The position numbers and the translations under genes are program-made. The notes beneath the pieces are model-generated. The model did not search any database, had not been told where the DNA came from, and worked only from the letters and a program-made list of their open reading frames with translations. Shown one piece after another: positions 9,874 through 37,350 of a stretch of DNA of 37,350 nucleotides. How positions within the stretch are numbered: position 1 is the stretch's first letter; each line of letters opens with the position of its first letter. This DNA comes from a virus, in IMG/VR virus record IMGVR_UViG_3300020185_000126, positions 1 through 37,350 of that record. One strand, given 5' to 3'.

Positions 9874-9909
9874 AAAAAAAAGTGCCACTCGGTTTTAAGG
9901 AGTGACACT
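9872..9909 (-). terminator. Rho-independent terminator after the nuclease gene
   Basis: On the minus strand a 10-bp stem with one mismatch (9900-9909 with 9881-9890) and a 9-base loop is followed by a run of eight T. The stem begins inside the stop codon of the nuclease gene at 9908-10288. Confidence 0.85.
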
Positions 9910-10288
9910 AACAATTATGGAATAGGTCAAAGTTATTAAAATTTTCTTTATACTTGTTATTTAATGACACTCTTAATGAAGTTTGCCCTAAATTTTTTAT
10001 TATAAAGAATCCTAAATACTCTTCACTCCATATAGCAAAAAAATCAACTAACCTTTTATCATAACTTGGATCACCTGACCTTTTAAGTGTTATCTGTGTA
10101 TTACCTCTATGTTTATACCTATCAACACCTAAATACTTTACTTGAACCTTTTTAAGAGCACCATTCTTCTCAATTATGCAATCATAAGGACTTGAATCCA
10201 ATAGTGGCATAGAAACGTTAAAACCTTGCTTAATAGCTGTACTAGCAAAGTGATGCTCAGCATAACACCCTTTTTGATTGGCATTCAT
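9908..10288 (-). CDS. PD-(D/E)XK endonuclease-like protein
   Basis: This 126-residue protein has the core of the PD-(D/E)XK_5 type. An N-terminal helix reads KGCYAEHHFASTAIKQGF, followed by SPYDCIIEKNG and then KKVQVKYL, giving E, D and Q-V-K residues in the expected order. The family includes stand-alone phage and intron-encoded nucleases. The gene is boxed between two terminators (10301-10332 and 9872-9909), so it is transcribed as an independent unit between head and connector genes, as for a moron or homing nuclease. The substrate is unknown. Confidence 0.7.
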   Translation of the reverse strand: MNANQKGCYAEHHFASTAIKQGFNVSMPLLDSSPYDCIIEKNGALKKVQVKYLGVDRYKHRGNTQITLKRSGDPSYDKRLVDFFAIWSEEYLGFFIIKNLGQTSLRVSLNNKYKENFNNFDLFHNC

Positions 10289-18049: not shown

Positions 18050-18889
18050 TTATTTTTGCCTAATAAGATTTAAAAACTCATTACGAGGGTTGAATTCATC
18101 TTTAAATTTACCAATCATTTTAGACGTCGTAGTAAACGTATCGTGCTTTTTTACACCTCTCATCTCCATACACATATGCTTAGCTGTTAAAACAACTGCT
18201 ACACCTTTAGGGTCGAGTTTATCTTGTAAAAATTCAGCTACTTGAGTAGTAATACGTTCTTGATTTTGTAATCTTCTTGAAAATGTTTCAAGTGTTCTAG
18301 CTAATTTACTCAAACCAACTATTCTTTTGTTTGGAATGTAAGCTATATGACCATATCCAAAAAAAGGCGCTATATGGTGTTCACATAATGAATGAAAAGG
18401 AATATTTGTTTGTACTATCATTTCATCATATCCCTCACCTTCAAAAGTAGTACAATTCCAATTGGGTGGATTTAAAAACTCTTTAAAAAACTTAATAAAC
18501 CTTTTTGGTGTATCTAGTAAACCCTCTCTAGTTACATCCTCTCCAAAATATTGTAATAATCTCTTTACATTGTCCTCAACTGTTTCTACTGTATCGTTTT
18601 CTTTAACTTCCCAAGGAAAAACTATCCAATCGTTATGGTACTCTTTTTTCTTATCTATTAATACCTCAAATGGTTTTTTAAAATTTTTATATCTTTCTTG
18701 TGTTGTTCCGCTATCAATTAAATCATCAACTATAACATCACAATCTTCTATTTTATCAACCGCATTTCCAATTACTCCAGCTACAACTTGACCACCCCTA
18801 GGAACACCCCAAAAATTAGAGTTAGGATATTTTTTTTTAATTTTTAAAGCTCTTACAAATATCTCATCCCACGTTATATACTTCTTCAT
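18050..18889 (-). CDS. folE: Phosphoribosyltransferase-GTP cyclohydrolase I fusion
   Basis: This 279-residue protein has two parts. Residues about 1-95 look like a type I phosphoribosyltransferase: WGVPRGGQVVAG (27-38), the PRPP-binding motif VDDLIDSGTT (54-63), and WIVFPWE (88-94). Residues about 98-279 are GTP cyclohydrolase I, with CEHH (169-172) and HMCMEMRGV (238-246) giving the zinc ligands, plus STS-like TTTS. FolE opens GTP to dihydroneopterin triphosphate, the first step to preQ0. The PRTase may recycle or channel purine bases, but that is a guess. It is the last gene of the que operon, with a 4-base overlap with queE. Confidence 0.88.
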   Translation of the reverse strand: MKKYITWDEIFVRALKIKKKYPNSNFWGVPRGGQVVAGVIGNAVDKIEDCDVIVDDLIDSGTTQERYKNFKKPFEVLIDKKKEYHNDWIVFPWEVKENDTVETVEDNVKRLLQYFGEDVTREGLLDTPKRFIKFFKEFLNPPNWNCTTFEGEGYDEMIVQTNIPFHSLCEHHIAPFFGYGHIAYIPNKRIVGLSKLARTLETFSRRLQNQERITTQVAEFLQDKLDPKGVAVVLTAKHMCMEMRGVKKHDTFTTTSKMIGKFKDEFNPRNEFLNLIRQK

Positions 18890-19617
18890 ACTCCAGTTTT
18901 TTTATTCCAAATTTCTATGTGTAACCTTGTAGTAAAATTAATATGATTATTTTTTGCTAATTCAACTACAAATTGTTTATTCTGATTTAATAATTCTTGA
19001 TTTTCTCCTGCTGGCATTAAATAAATTTTATTTCTATCTATTAATGGCATATATAAATGTCCTATCTCATGCCATTCTTTCATTTTGTTAATTACAAATT
19101 TAAATATAGTGTTGTGTTTATTTAATTCTATTATTACATCCTCTTTAAAAGTCATAGAAGTATCATTACCACTGTTTAATAATTTAGGACTACAATTCCA
19201 CAAATCAATATTTAATAATAGATATTCATTAGGCATTATGGTTCCATTTGTTTCTACCTCAAAAAATGCATAAGGATTAATCTCTTTGTAAACGTATTTC
19301 ATAAATTCTTCTAATCCCTTTTGTTGCATCGTTGGTTCTCCGCCAGTCAAAATAACGTGAGCACCTAGTTTTATTGCTTTTATACATTCTTCATCTAATA
19401 TTTCATTTACTGGTTTTGAGGTAGCTTTCATCCATACCTCTACTGTATCACACCTAAATTCTGCGCCATTATGTAATTCTCCATCAAATTGAGTTCCCAT
19501 ACCGCCACACATAAGATTACAACCACCTAATCTAACAAATACACTTGGAATACCAACTGTTTTACCCTCTCCTTGTATTGAGTAAAAAACCTCGCTAATT
19601 GCTAATTTCGTTTCCAT
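18886..19617 (-). CDS. queE: QueE, 7-carboxy-7-deazaguanine synthase (radical SAM)
   Basis: This 243-residue protein starts EVFYSIQGEGKTVGIPSVFVR, the hallmark QueE N-terminus. The cluster cysteines are C33, C37 and C56 (GGCNLMC, then RCDTVEVW). The spacing C-x3-C-x18-C differs from the usual C-x3-C-x2-C, with an insertion before the third Cys. VILTGGEPTMQ is the SAM/substrate GGEP motif, and FEVETNGT follows. It converts 6-carboxytetrahydropterin to CDG in preQ0 synthesis. It overlaps queD by 23 bases and folE by 4. Confidence 0.93.
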   Translation of the reverse strand: METKLAISEVFYSIQGEGKTVGIPSVFVRLGGCNLMCGGMGTQFDGELHNGAEFRCDTVEVWMKATSKPVNEILDEECIKAIKLGAHVILTGGEPTMQQKGLEEFMKYVYKEINPYAFFEVETNGTIMPNEYLLLNIDLWNCSPKLLNSGNDTSMTFKEDVIIELNKHNTIFKFVINKMKEWHEIGHLYMPLIDRNKIYLMPAGENQELLNQNKQFVVELAKNNHINFTTRLHIEIWNKKTGV

Positions 19618-20011
19618 TATATATAATTGTTGATGATTTTGTTTCCGCTAATTGTATCTCACATATTGGTAATTTAGTTTCGTTTTTAATTCTTGTAAAT
19701 AACCAAATCGCCATATTTTCAGCACTTGTTTCGAAAGGTAGTTTTCTATAAGGTTCGTTTGATAAATCTAGAACCGAACATAAATTATCTTTTTCCCATA
19801 ACAAAAAATAATGATCATAGTATTTAATAATTGGTTCAACTAAATTATCTATATCACTAAACAAAACAGTTATACCGTTTTTCATAGTTGAAAAATTAAA
19901 TTTACATACTACATCGTATGTATGACCGTGTAATCTGCTACACTTTTCGCCAGCTTTTTTATTTCTATGTCCAGCATAAAAATAATATCTTTTTTGTATA
20001 ATCATATCCAT
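19595..20011 (-). CDS. queD: QueD, 6-carboxytetrahydropterin synthase
   Basis: This 138-residue PTPS-family enzyme has zinc His ligands in FYAGHR (residues 12-17) and RLHGHTY, and the catalytic Cys precedes the latter in KCSRLHGH. Further family features are VLFSDIDNLVEPI, a YYDHYFL His-Asp, and a terminal AETKSSTIIY matching the 'E....' substrate loop. It turns dihydroneopterin triphosphate into CPH4. The start at 20011 overlaps queC by 10 bases. Confidence 0.92.
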   Translation of the reverse strand: MDMIIQKRYYFYAGHRNKKAGEKCSRLHGHTYDVVCKFNFSTMKNGITVLFSDIDNLVEPIIKYYDHYFLLWEKDNLCSVLDLSNEPYRKLPFETSAENMAIWLFTRIKNETKLPICEIQLAETKSSTIIYNGNEISN

Positions 20012-20619
20012 CCTTTTTCTTTTGCCTCGTAATAACCCTCAACACGTAATTCAGTTGCATGATTATCATTAACACCATACCCCCATTCGTTTAAAATATT
20101 AGAACCATTATAATCAGTCATAGTATCATTAATTATAATATCTAAAATATTTAAATCTTTTGCCATTTTCCAAGTTTCTGCTTTGGTTAAGTACATTAAT
20201 GGAGTATGTATTCTAAAATCAATATCCATTCCTAATGTTAATGTTAATTGAATACTATCAATAAATTTTCTTCTACAATCTGGATAATCTTGAAAATCCA
20301 TTTGACAAGTACCTGTAATTAAATCTGTAATCTCTAATCCTTTTGCATAAATTCCTGCTATAGTTATAAACAAACTATTTCGTCCCTCAGTTAATCTTAA
20401 ATTACTAGAATTATTTGTTTTTAATAAATGTTCAATATCAAATATCTTATACTCAATATTTTCTTTATCACAAATTTTTTGAGCAGATTCTAATTCGATT
20501 TTATGTTTTTGACCGTAATCAAATCCAACTGCATAAATTTTATCGTATTTTTCTTTTGCCCAATATAAGCAAGTAGTAGAATCTTGACCACCACTAAATA
20601 ATATTACTGCGTCTTTCAT
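20002..20619 (-). CDS. queC: QueC, preQ0 synthase, with the zinc cysteines missing
   Basis: This 205-residue PP-loop ATPase has FSGGQDSTT (residues 8-16), VGFDYGQKH, a TGTCQMDFQDYPDCR segment, and a HTPLMYLTKAETW motif, all typical of QueC, which makes preQ0 from CDG, ammonia and ATP. The C-terminal zinc site, normally four Cys in a C...CxxCxxC-LR arrangement, is replaced here by WGYGVNDNHATELRVEGY with no Cys. The LR..GY frame is kept, so this looks like a variant rather than a truncation. It starts directly after the DpdA stop. Confidence 0.9.
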   Translation of the reverse strand: MKDAVILFSGGQDSTTCLYWAKEKYDKIYAVGFDYGQKHKIELESAQKICDKENIEYKIFDIEHLLKTNNSSNLRLTEGRNSLFITIAGIYAKGLEITDLITGTCQMDFQDYPDCRRKFIDSIQLTLTLGMDIDFRIHTPLMYLTKAETWKMAKDLNILDIIINDTMTDYNGSNILNEWGYGVNDNHATELRVEGYYEAKEKGWI

Positions 20620-21348
20620 TTATATAGTATTTAAATATTTACCGTATTTTACCCACTCAAAAAAATTATGTCTGCAAGTTTCTCTGGTTTTAATTCTTTT
20701 TCCCTCTGGTTTTACAAATTTTTCCATTTTTTTGTTTTTAAAATTATATACACCACCAAACCTATTACCACTTAACCAGCTTGTACTATCAACACTATAA
20801 AAAGGTATATCAAGTAAACCCTTTTGACTTGTATAACCTAAACCATGTACTCTTACATTTTTTTTATTTGCGTATTGTACTAATTTTTTTAATTTATCAG
20901 GTTGATTTCTTGTCCACCTTGTACCGTGTTGTCCACTAGCACCAATAGCTATATAATTATATTTATCGCATAACATTTTATAATAATCTATACCTAAAAA
21001 AATATGAAAAACTGGAATACATTTTTTTTTAGTTTTTTTTTCTATTAAATCTCTAATATCCTCAGTTTTTTTTATACCAATTAATTTATATATATCTAGT
21101 TCAAAAAAATACCTTACATCGTATTTATTTATAAAATCAATATAATCATTTACATATTTTTTAATATCAACTTTAACACCGCCAAACATTGAAAAAGCAC
21201 CACTATCTAAAAGAAAATTATTATACTGGTGTAGTACTTTTGCTTCTTTTTCGTTTATATGAAAAAAAGTATGTAATCTATTAAAATCATAATAATTTAA
21301 CTCCATCCAAGTATCTTGCCAACCAGCACCAGCTAAAAAAAGTTTCAT
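20620..21348 (-). CDS. dpdA: DpdA-like DNA-guanine transglycosylase
   Basis: This 242-residue TIM-barrel-like protein distantly related to tRNA-guanine transglycosylase has FLLDSGAFS (residues 45-53), ELDIY (83-87), PVFHI, IAIGASG (133-139), VHGLGYT (167-173) and YSVDSTSW (184-191). These motifs fit the short phage DpdA type, which swaps guanine in DNA for preQ0. Asp 48 and Asp 187 are candidate catalytic acids by analogy. It is placed between a ParB-like gene (ATGA overlap) and queC, and no QueF or ArcS gene is present, so preQ0 or a near derivative is the predicted base. Confidence 0.82.
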   Translation of the reverse strand: MKLFLAGAGWQDTWMELNYYDFNRLHTFFHINEKEAKVLHQYNNFLLDSGAFSMFGGVKVDIKKYVNDYIDFINKYDVRYFFELDIYKLIGIKKTEDIRDLIEKKTKKKCIPVFHIFLGIDYYKMLCDKYNYIAIGASGQHGTRWTRNQPDKLKKLVQYANKKNVRVHGLGYTSQKGLLDIPFYSVDSTSWLSGNRFGGVYNFKNKKMEKFVKPEGKRIKTRETCRHNFFEWVKYGKYLNTI

Positions 21349-21884
21349 AGTTTTAAAGCTTGTTTTAAAATGTCTTCTGCTTTTCTTCCATCAACTTTTA
21401 TTTTATCAATAATCTCGTTATACTCTAACTCGTTTTCGTATTTTAGTATAATTTTATTATTTGATTGTTCATTATCTTTTGTTACATCTATATATAAATC
21501 ATCTATATTAACATCTGTTTCGGTTTGCCAAACTTGTAAACCCCACTCGTCAAGTTTTACCTCACTCCAATCGTTAGCTAATATATCCCAATCCCACTCA
21601 CCAAAACCTAAATTATCTTTTATAATAAATTCTTTTTTTTGCTCCTCTGTCCAATTTAATACTTTATGTATATATACATCAAATAAACCAGCTGATTTAC
21701 ATGCTTTTAACCTCATATTACCGCCTAAAACAACCATATTTTCGTCAACTATTATAGGACGTTTTTGTAACATTTCCGGAAATTCTTTTATTGATTTAAC
21801 TAACTTTTTAAATTTTGTAGAATTAATATATCTTGGATTAGTTTTATTTTCTTTAACTAATTTAATATTACATTTTTCAATCAT
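21345..21884 (-). CDS. ParB/Srx-like DNA-binding protein coupled to dpdA
   Basis: From MIEKCNIKLVKENKTNPRY the product is a 179-residue protein with a ParB-like N-domain: FKKLVKSIKEFPEMLQKRPI, VVLGGNMRLKACKSAGL (the 'GGnmRl.A' signature), then TEEQKKEFIIKDNLGFGEWDWDILAN. This exact layout commonly forms the N-terminus of phage ParB-DNA methylase fusions. Here the methylase domain is absent and dpdA starts within its stop codon. An in-frame ATG at 21992 is rejected because the 36 extra residues are unlike the family and overlap the upstream gene. A targeting or nicking role is inferred. Confidence 0.8.
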   Translation of the reverse strand: MIEKCNIKLVKENKTNPRYINSTKFKKLVKSIKEFPEMLQKRPIIVDENMVVLGGNMRLKACKSAGLFDVYIHKVLNWTEEQKKEFIIKDNLGFGEWDWDILANDWSEVKLDEWGLQVWQTETDVNIDDLYIDVTKDNEQSNNKIILKYENELEYNEIIDKIKVDGRKAEDILKQALKL

Positions 21885-22107
21885 TGTAACTGTTTTGCTT
21901 ATACAAATATAAAAATAAATCCCAAATTTTGTTTGATGCAATACTTTGATTTTTATAAAAATAAGGTGACCTTGAGATATTATTATTATCATTTACCTCG
22001 ATAAAACACTCTTTTTTACCTTTAATTGGCACTATATATATAGTAATATTATTATTTAAACACCAGCTTTGTGCTTTATGATATATATTCATATTTATAT
22101 TTATCAA
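21877..22107 (-). CDS. Small hypothetical protein (76 aa) before the ParB-like gene
   Basis: This product has NIYHKAQSWCLNNNITIYIVPIKGKKECFIEVNDN and ends QNSYND. It is a compact alpha-beta-like soluble protein with no known motif. The ATG at 22107 overlaps the zinc-ribbon gene by 32 bases; a second ATG at 22092 would overlap by 17 and is equally possible. Its end overlaps the ParB-like start by 8 bases, so it belongs to the modification operon. No family was recognised. Confidence 0.6.
   Translation of the reverse strand: MININMNIYHKAQSWCLNNNITIYIVPIKGKKECFIEVNDNNNISRSPYFYKNQSIASNKIWDLFLYLYKQNSYND
21904..21911 (-). promoter_or_regulatory. Possible -7 box inside the operon, before the ParB-dpdA-que genes
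   Basis: The minus strand reads TATATTTG (TAnnTTTG), 19 bases before the ParB-like ATG at 21884. TTG triplets upstream lie 11 or 27 bases away, outside the usual spacing, so confidence is low. Confidence 0.3.
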
Positions 22108-22243
22108 TTAATTCTTTACAATTAATACATTGTAAAGCTGACCAACTAAAATGATAAACAATAAAACGTTCACTACAATTTGGACATACAATAATTTTAC
22201 CTAAACCAGCTCTAGTATGTTTATTTACTTTTTTTAATCCCAT
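22076..22243 (-). CDS. Small zinc-ribbon protein (55 aa)
   Basis: The product has two CxxC knuckles, IIVCPNCSERF and LQCINCKELI, separated by 17 residues and so forming a probable zinc ribbon after a basic N-terminus (MGLKKVNKHTRAGLGK). The start overlaps the primase-helicase stop by 10 bases and the end overlaps the 76-aa gene by 32, linking the replication genes to the modification operon. Nucleic-acid binding is likely by type, and the target is unknown. Confidence 0.7.
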   Translation of the reverse strand: MGLKKVNKHTRAGLGKIIVCPNCSERFIVYHFSWSALQCINCKELIDKYKYEYIS

Positions 22244-25738: not shown

Positions 25739-26140
25739 TTACTCTATTTCAGACAATTTATATATAAGTTCATTTAATTCATCTATCTCACCTCTTAAAA
25801 TTTCTGTTTCAAATAATAAATTATTATATTTTAAAACTAACTTTTTTGCTGATAATTCTTCATTATGGAAACAAAAAAACTTTAATTTTGTCATTACTAA
25901 TTCATAATCTCTTTGTAATTGTTTATTATATTTTAATAAATCTGGCAAACTTTTTAAACTCCATAAAATAGTCGCGTGATTCTTATTTAAAGAATCAGAA
26001 ATTTGATGATATGGTATATTTAAATAATCTCTACAAGCTTTGTAATAACAAGCTCTAGCAAATACATATCTTTCTTTTCTAGTATTATTATTTATATCTA
26101 AATTAAAATGTCTATTAACTATTTTTTTTAACTCTTCCAT
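25739..26140 (-). CDS. DnaA domain IV-like DNA-binding protein
   Basis: This 133-residue protein starts MEELKKIVNRHFNLDIN. Its next segment, ERYVFARACYYKACRDYLNIPYHQISDSLNKNHATILWSLKSL, matches the DnaA C-terminal helix-turn-helix signature, including the N-H-x-T-I/V-x-x-x-x-K recognition helix. There is no AAA+ domain, so it is a stand-alone DNA-binder. A helical tail follows. It may recognise the phage origin or compete at DnaA boxes. It overlaps the exonuclease end by 13 bases. Confidence 0.75.
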   Translation of the reverse strand: MEELKKIVNRHFNLDINNNTRKERYVFARACYYKACRDYLNIPYHQISDSLNKNHATILWSLKSLPDLLKYNKQLQRDYELVMTKLKFFCFHNEELSAKKLVLKYNNLLFETEILRGEIDELNELIYKLSEIE

Positions 26141-35698: not shown

Positions 35699-37350
35699 TT
35701 ATTTTTTTAATTGTTTTATTTCTTGTTTTAAACTATCAACCTCTGCTTTTAGTTCTTTTATAGCTTCAATAAATACACCAGCCATATTTCCATAGGCAAC
35801 GGAATGTTTATCCTCATCATCTATACTTACAACTTCTGGCAACACCTTTAAAACTTCTTGAGCAATTACACCAATTTTAGTTGATTTGTCATCAATGTCT
35901 TTTCTAGTGTAATTAACACCTCTTAATTTAGTAACCTTTTCTAATGCATTATCAATAGTAACAATATTTTCTTTTACTCTGCGATCAGAAAATGCAATTA
36001 CATCACTTGTAGCTCTTATTGATCCAGATACATCAAGTGCGTAACTTGGTACATTAGTTGTATCACCCTCTCCATATCCTAACCTAACACTTGTAGCAAC
36101 TGTTAATCTACCTCTTGTGTTTAATGACATTGCACCTTGTGCGTTTGTGTGTCCATTATCACCCCACCACCAACCTCTGCCATCTGTATTACTCATTTGT
36201 GAGGTTAAAGCATATTCATTATCTAAAGCACCATAAGTATAACCAGATTGCATACCATACCCATAAGTTGTGCCTGTCCAAACAGAAAATTTAACTCTTT
36301 GGCTTACTGCTTTCATTTCAACATGAGTAGTTTGTAATTTTAATACTGATCCGCTTCGAGTACCAGACATTATTAAAGTTCCATTTTGAGAAGCATTATG
36401 TCCCCACATACCCCATTCACCATTACCAATCTGAGTTAATCCAGAGAAACCACTTGGCAAAACAGTTCCACCACCTCTATAACCTAGCGACATCCCATAA
36501 GCTTCTTTTGACGCTGTTGTTGAATTATGTTCTGCAAAGAATATTCTACCAGAACCCTCGCCACTAGCATCTGTGTTTCCTTCAATAGTACAAAATCTAC
36601 CATTAACATTACCGCCATTTCCAGGTACACCAAAATTCATTGTCCCACCTTTAACTAAAACAGCTTGACCAGTACCATTATTTAAAACAATAGAACCACT
36701 ATTATTAACTTGTAAACCAACTAAATTTGCGGTATTTTGAAACGTAAACGTTCCTGATGAGTTCATTGCAATTTTAGGGTGTCCAGATGATGCACTGGTG
36801 TCAAAAGCTATATAACTGTTGTTGGTTAAAAATATATTACCATTAACTTGTAATGATTCACTACCACTAGCTCCTTTTATACCAACATTTCCAGTAACTC
36901 TATCTATCTCAAATGAATTATTACCATCAACACTATTATTATGTGAGTGTATTCTAAATTTGTTATCTAAATTACCTCTGTTTTGTAAACTAAATCCATA
37001 AGTCATTACACCAGAGCCATTAAGTGTTTCAGCTAATTCTAATTTAGAACTTTCATTTGAACCTACACCCCCAACTCGCATAGTAGATGCTGAACCATTA
37101 GTAGCATTATACTTTTGAAAGTCAAAATCTACGTAAGGTGATGGTACATTTACACCAAATCTGTAATCAGTTCCGCTATGTTGTTTTAGTGATAATATTC
37201 TAACATTTGTACCGCCAGAATTAACAATACCAAAATGTGCAATACCTCTGTCGCTACTTTCTCGACCAGCTTCTATTAATAAACCTCTATCGTTTGAATG
37301 ATTAATAAGTATTGCCGCACCAGTATTATCGGCATCAGCACCAGCTTGAA
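35699..37350 (-). CDS. Tail fibre C-terminal part with S74 autochaperone (5' end off the window)
   Basis: The frame is open from the right edge of the window, so the ATG at 37081 is internal and the gene has no visible start. The body is Gly/Asn/Ser-rich. The last ~100 residues form a peptidase S74 intramolecular chaperone: AFSDRRVKENIVTID, KLRGVNYTRKD, TKIGVIAQEVLKVLPEVV, and a C-terminal coiled coil (KELKAEVDSLKQEIKQLKK). In this family the domain trimerises the fibre and then self-cleaves at a Ser near the S-D-R-R motif. It shares 1,112 bases with the left-end fibre (1-1112). Confidence 0.93.
   Translation of the reverse strand, partial: QAGADADNTGAAILINHSNDRGLLIEAGRESSDRGIAHFGIVNSGGTNVRILSLKQHSGTDYRFGVNVPSPYVDFDFQKYNATNGSASTMRVGGVGSNESSKLELAETLNGSGVMTYGFSLQNRGNLDNKFRIHSHNNSVDGNNSFEIDRVTGNVGIKGASGSESLQVNGNIFLTNNSYIAFDTSASSGHPKIAMNSSGTFTFQNTANLVGLQVNNSGSIVLNNGTGQAVLVKGGTMNFGVPGNGGNVNGRFCTIEGNTDASGEGSGRIFFAEHNSTTASKEAYGMSLGYRGGGTVLPSGFSGLTQIGNGEWGMWGHNASQNGTLIMSGTRSGSVLKLQTTHVEMKAVSQRVKFSVWTGTTYGYGMQSGYTYGALDNEYALTSQMSNTDGRGWWWGDNGHTNAQGAMSLNTRGRLTVATSVRLGYGEGDTTNVPSYALDVSGSIRATSDVIAFSDRRVKENIVTIDNALEKVTKLRGVNYTRKDIDDKSTKIGVIAQEVLKVLPEVVSIDDEDKHSVAYGNMAGVFIEAIKELKAEVDSLKQEIKQLKK
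36239..37350. repeat. Right copy of the diverged 1,112-bp terminal duplication
   Basis: This is homologous to 1-1112 with the same length and codon phase. The last ~200 bases (37150-37350) are almost identical, with only a few differences visible, while about 36568-37145 vary at many codons. Where they can be compared, the proteins are roughly 80% alike by eye. Confidence 0.9.

Follow-up and report, generated by a model that had tools for sequence, protein, structure and literature searches.

A phage 7-deazaguanine operon with a zinc-less QueC, a phosphoribosyltransferase-FolE fusion and a ParB-like neighbor of DpdA

We analyzed an IMG/VR virus record of an uncultured tailed phage (IMGVR_UViG_3300020185_000126, a fragment of 37,350 bases classed as linear, here called the window) and found a chain of six genes on its minus strand at 18050-21884, encoding a ParB-like protein, the guanine transglycosylase DpdA, QueC, QueD, QueE and FolE. 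Judged by gene content, the operon belongs to the known phage 7-deazaguanine systems, and it is likely a system for deoxy-preQ0 (dPreQ0), in which the phage would synthesize preQ0 and put it into its DNA in place of guanine. What sets it apart is a QueC without zinc cysteines, which fails one defining test of its family, together with a phosphoribosyltransferase (PRT) domain on FolE and a ParB-like protein, both outside the standard gene set. A first-pass annotation of the window had already listed the six proteins as one chain, and strong family matches (Table 1) and a recurring gene order in relatives bear this out. The gene overlaps of 1-23 bases given there hold for all junctions except that of DpdA and QueC, where the stop codon abuts the start codon (0 bp). 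The ParB/DpdA and QueE/FolE pairs share 4 bp each, QueC and QueD share 10 bp (4 bp with the second QueD ATG), and QueD and QueE share 23 bp. The ParB gene, previously placed with its start at 21992, most likely begins at 21884, because the aligned homologs begin there.

We compared the operon to phage systems for which the modified base has been reported. In Escherichia phage CAjan and Mycobacterium phage Rosebush, the same set of FolE, QueD, QueE, QueC and DpdA, again without an amidotransferase, gives dPreQ0 at about 30% of G, and inactivation of CAjan dpdA abolishes the modified base (Hutinet et al. 2019, PMC6884629). From such orthologs with measured products we infer both the product preQ0 and the exchange reaction in our phage. 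The CAjan and Rosebush QueCs keep their zinc cysteines, unlike the window enzyme (Rosebush being judged by its relative Hedgerow), and no ParB gene is annotated in the stretches of these two phages that we fetched, nor is ParB mentioned in PMC6884629. The window DpdA is a member of the phage family PHROG 887, which it matches over the core, rather than of an unrelated family. It shares 26.5% identity over 89% of its length with the experimentally proven DpdA of phage 9g (tblastn, 1e-10), and the alignment shows the aspartates of the LDSGAF and VDS(S/T) motifs in both proteins. D48 (DSGAF), D85 and D187 (VDS(S/T)) are invariant in 28 aligned sequences. For an AlphaFold2 model of DpdA (predicted local distance difference test score, pLDDT, 88.0), the best structural neighbors in BFVD include viral queuine tRNA-ribosyltransferases; the PDB gave generic barrels only, and the predicted fold is a barrel like that of the tRNA-guanine transglycosylases. 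The DpdA search and the gene set shared with CAjan and Rosebush support the earlier interpretation that preQ0 would be placed into DNA.

Of the other pathway enzymes, QueD has by sequence the zinc-binding His and the catalytic Cys, and QueE keeps three cysteines spaced C-x3-C-x18-C in the alignment. Across the operon type (the window and loci L001-L037; L numbers denote the loci compared here), two QueE forms of low mutual identity occur, the 243-residue C-x3-C-x18-C form of the window and a form of about 200 residues with C-x5-C-x6-C, and they look as if they had been swapped between phages.

The window QueC clearly falls into its family (TIGR00364, 3e-55, 186.9 bits, with the curated cut-off at 150.3; PF06508, 3.2e-53), as the first-pass annotation had stated, but all four signature zinc cysteines are gone, which had been missed. 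In place of TCYNG...CGxCxxCxLR the protein reads TDYNGSNILNEWGYGVNDNHATELR. Aligned with Bacillus subtilis QueC (3BL5), it keeps the SGGQDS ATP loop, the YxQxHxxE and YPDC motifs and the tyrosine of the zinc region; Y170 is invariant in the QueC alignment, and the VPxRN loop reads LTEGRN, with the essential Arg and the Asn kept and Val-Pro changed. The model of the window QueC superposes on 3BL5 over its whole length including the C terminus (template modeling score 0.87-0.90), and normal folding is predicted right up to the end of the chain, with pLDDT block means of 85-97 in the last 45 residues. The protein does not fit the QueC-like defense proteins QatC/Cap9: its partners are QueD, QueE, FolE and DpdA in place of Qat or CBASS genes, the QatC model matches only with an E value of 0.0079, and the QueC core motifs are kept.

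A search with the window QueC returned 36 other viral contigs, most of them with the same neighbors in the same order, and a DNA-pattern search added afterwards brought the collection to 97 distinct QueCs. The window and 96 of the 97 unique relatives have D, x, N and S/T in place of the C(x)8CxxCxxC motif of canonical QueC (PF06508 cluster 1). Counted by position, Asp stands at the first cysteine site and Asn at the third in 96 sequences each, Ser or Thr stands at the fourth in 95, and the second position is free. The DNA-pattern collection is biased toward Asp at the first site, and the Asn and Ser/Thr sites were never selected on. Among the 36 relatives found without selection on the zinc site, 35 have lost all four cysteines, and in a pattern control in IMG/VR the Asp-codon version found 113 stretches versus 2 for the Cys-codon version. 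A sequencing or assembly error in QueC was rejected, since the change is common to 96 of 97 unique homologs. Zinc-less QueCs with a different motif form a second set in cultured phages (Iggy, PBPA162, RHEph06, Erebus, MMDA13, DshS-R5C, Pan1 and a Stenotrophomonas phage). The QueC tree supports a single loss when the motif is included and gives two groups when it is cut out; zinc may have been lost once or twice. The zinc site is treated as a hallmark of QueC and used to separate true preQ0 synthases from their relatives; the portion of a 2026 family study drawn on here names C(x)8CxxCxxC as such a hallmark and describes no phage QueC without it (PMC13329287). In a large phage clade and in several cultured phages, the site has been lost in an orderly manner and the remainder of the pathway retained. 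Should these enzymes be functional, preQ0 chemistry would have no need for zinc, and the zinc motif as an annotation criterion would put them in the wrong class.

It is probable that the zinc-less window QueC still makes preQ0, because zinc-less operons carry QueF and because Iggy, with a zinc-less QueC, has been reported with dPreQ0. QueF-bearing variants (L009, L029, L030, L074, L085 and others) share with the window the ParB-DpdA-QueC-QueD-QueE-FolE layout and the zinc-less QueC, but they carry QueF, for which dPreQ1 is the predicted product. Seven tested QueF proteins from the same QueC clade (the five loci above, L061 and L071) score 91-109 bits against a TIGR03139 cut-off of 86.9, and the genes lie mostly between dpdA and queC. 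QueF or a QueF-like protein is also encoded along with QueC in MMDA13 and in the R5C-like phage R26L. As QueF acts on the nitrile of preQ0, preQ0 is thus expected to be made in these operons. We restricted the QueF counts to proteins checked against NCBIfam, and an iterated QueF profile also drew in FolE proteins by T-fold paralogy; a weak QueF match of the window FolE (PF14489) was rejected as a QueF gene on the same grounds. The Iggyvirus lineage (Iggy, PBPA162, Knedl) likewise has a QueC without zinc cysteines, which differs from that of the window in its degenerate motif SHTSYDGEYPPTKNNHSNLLRAQGF, its greater length (352-353 residues) and its gene order. Going by the title of Olsen et al. 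2023 (cited in PMC11008142), this lineage has dPreQ0, and the DNA of a relative resists restriction enzymes (PMC11945000).

Several points weigh against this assignment. Pseudomonas aeruginosa, the host of Iggy, has its own QueC, and dPreQ0 in Iggy is therefore no proof that the phage QueC makes preQ0; hosts can supply it. The QueF-bearing operons are relatives, and in the window itself neither QueF nor ArcS, an amidotransferase or a Gat-QueC was seen among the ORFs (open reading frames) scanned, a part of those in a fragment record, so that the absence of QueF, ArcS and Gat-QueC noted in the first-pass annotation stands for these ORFs and is unproven for the whole genome. The window QueC itself has no Gat domain. 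The ParB-like gene is missing at 9 of 39 comparable loci, and is therefore not essential to the operon. Finally, the published signature C(x)8CxxCxxC (PMC13329287) is absent from the window QueC.

The loss of all four cysteines of this hallmark could mean that QueC stops half-way and releases 7-amido-7-deazaguanine (ADG), or that it is inactive and leaves 7-carboxy-7-deazaguanine (CDG), and that DpdA inserts dADG or dCDG; dADG is a known phage base (PMC8306585). We find this improbable. Phage CP220, whose DNA carries 100% dADG, has a QueC that keeps its cysteines, and zinc loss and ADG are thus not linked; QueF, acting on the preQ0 nitrile, is encoded in operons of the same QueC clade; the zinc-less Iggy QueC is accompanied by reported dPreQ0; and the window QueC keeps the Arg and Tyr reported as essential for preQ0 synthesis. 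CP220 and the QueF genes led us to reject, as the main reading, that zinc loss means ADG, and we favor preQ0; because QueC is unusual, there remains a slight yet real probability that the base is ADG or CDG. In the contig whose DpdA is most similar to that of the window (61% identity), an S-adenosylmethionine methyltransferase-like protein (L001:2268-2966; PF13489, 4e-4) takes the QueC position between DpdA and QueD, no QueC was seen, and the base of that phage may be CDG-derived, perhaps methylated. YhhQ-like membrane proteins, possible preQ0 transporters, are found near zinc-less QueC at L062, L097, L118, L119, L032 and L138, with a family match in one of the three tested (L032 only; TIGR00697, 2e-6).

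Some phages have preQ0 genes without DpdA and are presumed to boost host tRNA queuosine (PMC6884629), and our operon might in principle raise preQ0 for the same end. This is very improbable, however, as DpdA is present at all 39 loci with enough flanking sequence (39/39; QueE and FolE also 39/39, QueD 38/39, ParB 30/39), belongs to the DNA-acting 9g type, and has coupled to it a ParB-like gene of a kind linked to phage DNA modifiers (PMC12783734).

The ParB-like protein matches PHROG 940 (2.8e-24) and conserves the GGxxR motif as GGNMR, while its Pfam ParB_N match is below the cut-off (6.7e-4). In phages, its relatives are for the most part ParB domains that carry a DNA methyltransferase annotation and sit at the N terminus of the enzyme. 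Small ParB/Srx domains fused to or beside a modification enzyme are known from such methyltransferases and from CmoX loci, where ParB proteins lie next to the phage cytosine-modification enzyme and their role is called unknown (PMC12783734). The window protein shares this neighborhood, but unlike these cases it is a separate gene that overlaps a transglycosylase gene, dpdA. Fusobacterium phage phiFN37 and the faecal phage at L049 likewise have a ParB-like gene next to dpdA, and neither has a zinc-less QueC. It is likely that the ParB-like protein is a DNA-engaging partner of modification enzymes, and the ParB-DpdA pair would extend to transglycosylases what has been observed for CmoX and phage methyltransferases. 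Nothing seen supports a nuclease or partition role. In phiFN37 (L048:5441-7750), ParB-DpdA precedes a queuosine-precursor transporter, and the stretch we fetched holds no synthesis genes; the same pair may occur here in a salvage version.

FolE is a GTP cyclohydrolase I, as annotated before, but the earlier annotation missed that it is fused to an N-terminal PRT-like domain. The first 95-100 residues hold PRGG and VDDLIDSG motifs and end in W.VFPW. All 15 aligned proteins match the xanthine PRT model NF006613, the best with 7.1e-7, though far below its curated cut-off of 138 bits, and a profile built from the 15 returned only xanthine(-guanine) PRTs as top matches in the PDB (E 0.002). The domain is found on FolE in 60 of 90 distinct operons. 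DpdA base exchange must release guanine, and a guanine PRT on the GTP-consuming FolE would recycle it; the fusion suggests that the domain may salvage the guanine released by DpdA, which would be a testable answer to the fate of this base. There is an even chance, though, that the domain is a folding or regulatory module, such as a nucleotide sensor: it spans about 95 residues rather than the approximately 150 of a complete PRT domain, lacks the middle segment that xanthine-guanine PRT (XGPRT) has between the RGG and phosphoribosyl pyrophosphate (PRPP) motifs, and is absent from FolE in 30 of 90 operons. A salvage enzyme is favored by the PRPP loop D55-D56-x-I58-D59-S60-G61, the RGG turn and W88, the equivalent of the base-stacking Trp, which align with XGPRT and are invariant in the 15 proteins, by a PRT domain that stands as a separate gene beside FolE at L112 (once among the operons), and by the recurrence of the fusion in cultured phages such as the Queuovirinae member VpKK5, Quinobequin-P09 and MMDA13.

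In the scheme we propose, FolE, QueD and QueE would convert GTP into CDG, and the zinc-free QueC would use ATP and ammonia to turn CDG via ADG into preQ0. DpdA would then put preQ0 in the place of guanine in the DNA of the phage, probably at selected sequences, and such DNA would be cut less well by host restriction enzymes and perhaps by CRISPR nucleases. The ParB-like protein, translationally coupled to dpdA, may help DpdA engage or scan DNA, as methyltransferase-fused ParB domains may, and the PRT domain could recapture the released guanine as GMP, feeding FolE with GTP. Taken as a whole, a self-feeding base-exchange cycle, in which guanine ejected by DpdA returns through the XGPRT-like domain as GMP and GTP and then as preQ0 via a zinc-independent QueC, with the ParB-like protein steering DpdA, is a tentative and rather doubtful proposal.

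In relatives, the order ParB-DpdA-QueC-QueD-QueE-FolE recurs in dozens of viral contigs and is followed by terminase genes. The lineage appears to be known only from environmental sequence, as no record in a phage isolate collection has a DNA match covering more than 2% of the operon and the best identity to the window QueC there is 42.5%. We guess at a Bacteroidota host, because the closest matches of the large terminase are in Bacteroides and Phocaeicola phages, at less than 40% identity.

Table 1. Features of the operon region (positions in the window)
Feature	Position	Strand	Basis
ParB/Srx-like protein, 179 aa, GGNMR motif	21345..21884	-	PHROG 940/498/620; PADLOC MTase_II 1.1e-9; tblastn to phage 'DNA modification methylase'; start by alignment
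DpdA, DNA guanine transglycosylase, phage 9g type, 242 aa	20620..21348	-	PHROG 887 3.2e-45
QueC (preQ0 synthase) without zinc cysteines, 205 aa	20002..20619	-	TIGR00364; 3BL5 alignment; model versus 3BL5
Degenerate QueC zinc site, TDYNGSNILNEWGYGVNDNHATELR replacing TCYNG..CGxCxxCxLR	20044..20118	-	Alignment
QueD, 138 aa (136 if start is ATG at 20005)	19595..20011	-	PF01242 3.2e-23; TIGR03367 2.9e-17
QueE radical SAM enzyme, 243 aa	18886..19617	-	PHROG 2076 3e-53; TIGR03963 8e-19; alignment
PRT-FolE fusion, 279 aa; GTP cyclohydrolase I at residues ~105-277 behind XGPRT-like domain	18050..18889	-	PF01227 3.7e-64; TIGR00063 9.6e-61
N-terminal xanthine/guanine PRT-like domain of FolE, shortened (PRGG, VDDLIDSG, W.VFPW)	18590..18889	-	NF006613; PDB profile search
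Small ORF, at most 76 aa (TTG 22107 or ATG 22092)	21877..22107	-	No convincing family match; similar ORF in one relative
55-aa ORF, zinc-ribbon-like, two CxxC pairs (CxxC..CxxC)	22076..22243	-	First ORF of chain; overlaps end of primase/helicase gene

The region previously assigned to the operon extends to 22243 and thus takes in two further small ORFs that had not been listed; they precede the ParB-like gene together with a primase/helicase gene, and the zinc-ribbon-like one has no clear counterpart recurring at the same place in relatives. FolE is followed by a 120-aa ORF, genes for the small and large terminase subunits and a portal gene, the terminase and portal genes being named by sequence and gene order. 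Scans for promoters and terminators gave no clear enrichment over shuffled sequence. The two ends of the record (1-1500 and 35850-37350) hold near-identical copies of a tail-fiber C terminus (220 shared 25-mers, Peptidase_S74 chaperone); the contig thus probably broke in this repeat, and it may hold almost the whole genome. Elsewhere in the window, a DnaA C-terminal-like protein is encoded in the replication region (25739-26140) and a PDDEXK_5 endonuclease amid the structural genes (9908-10288).

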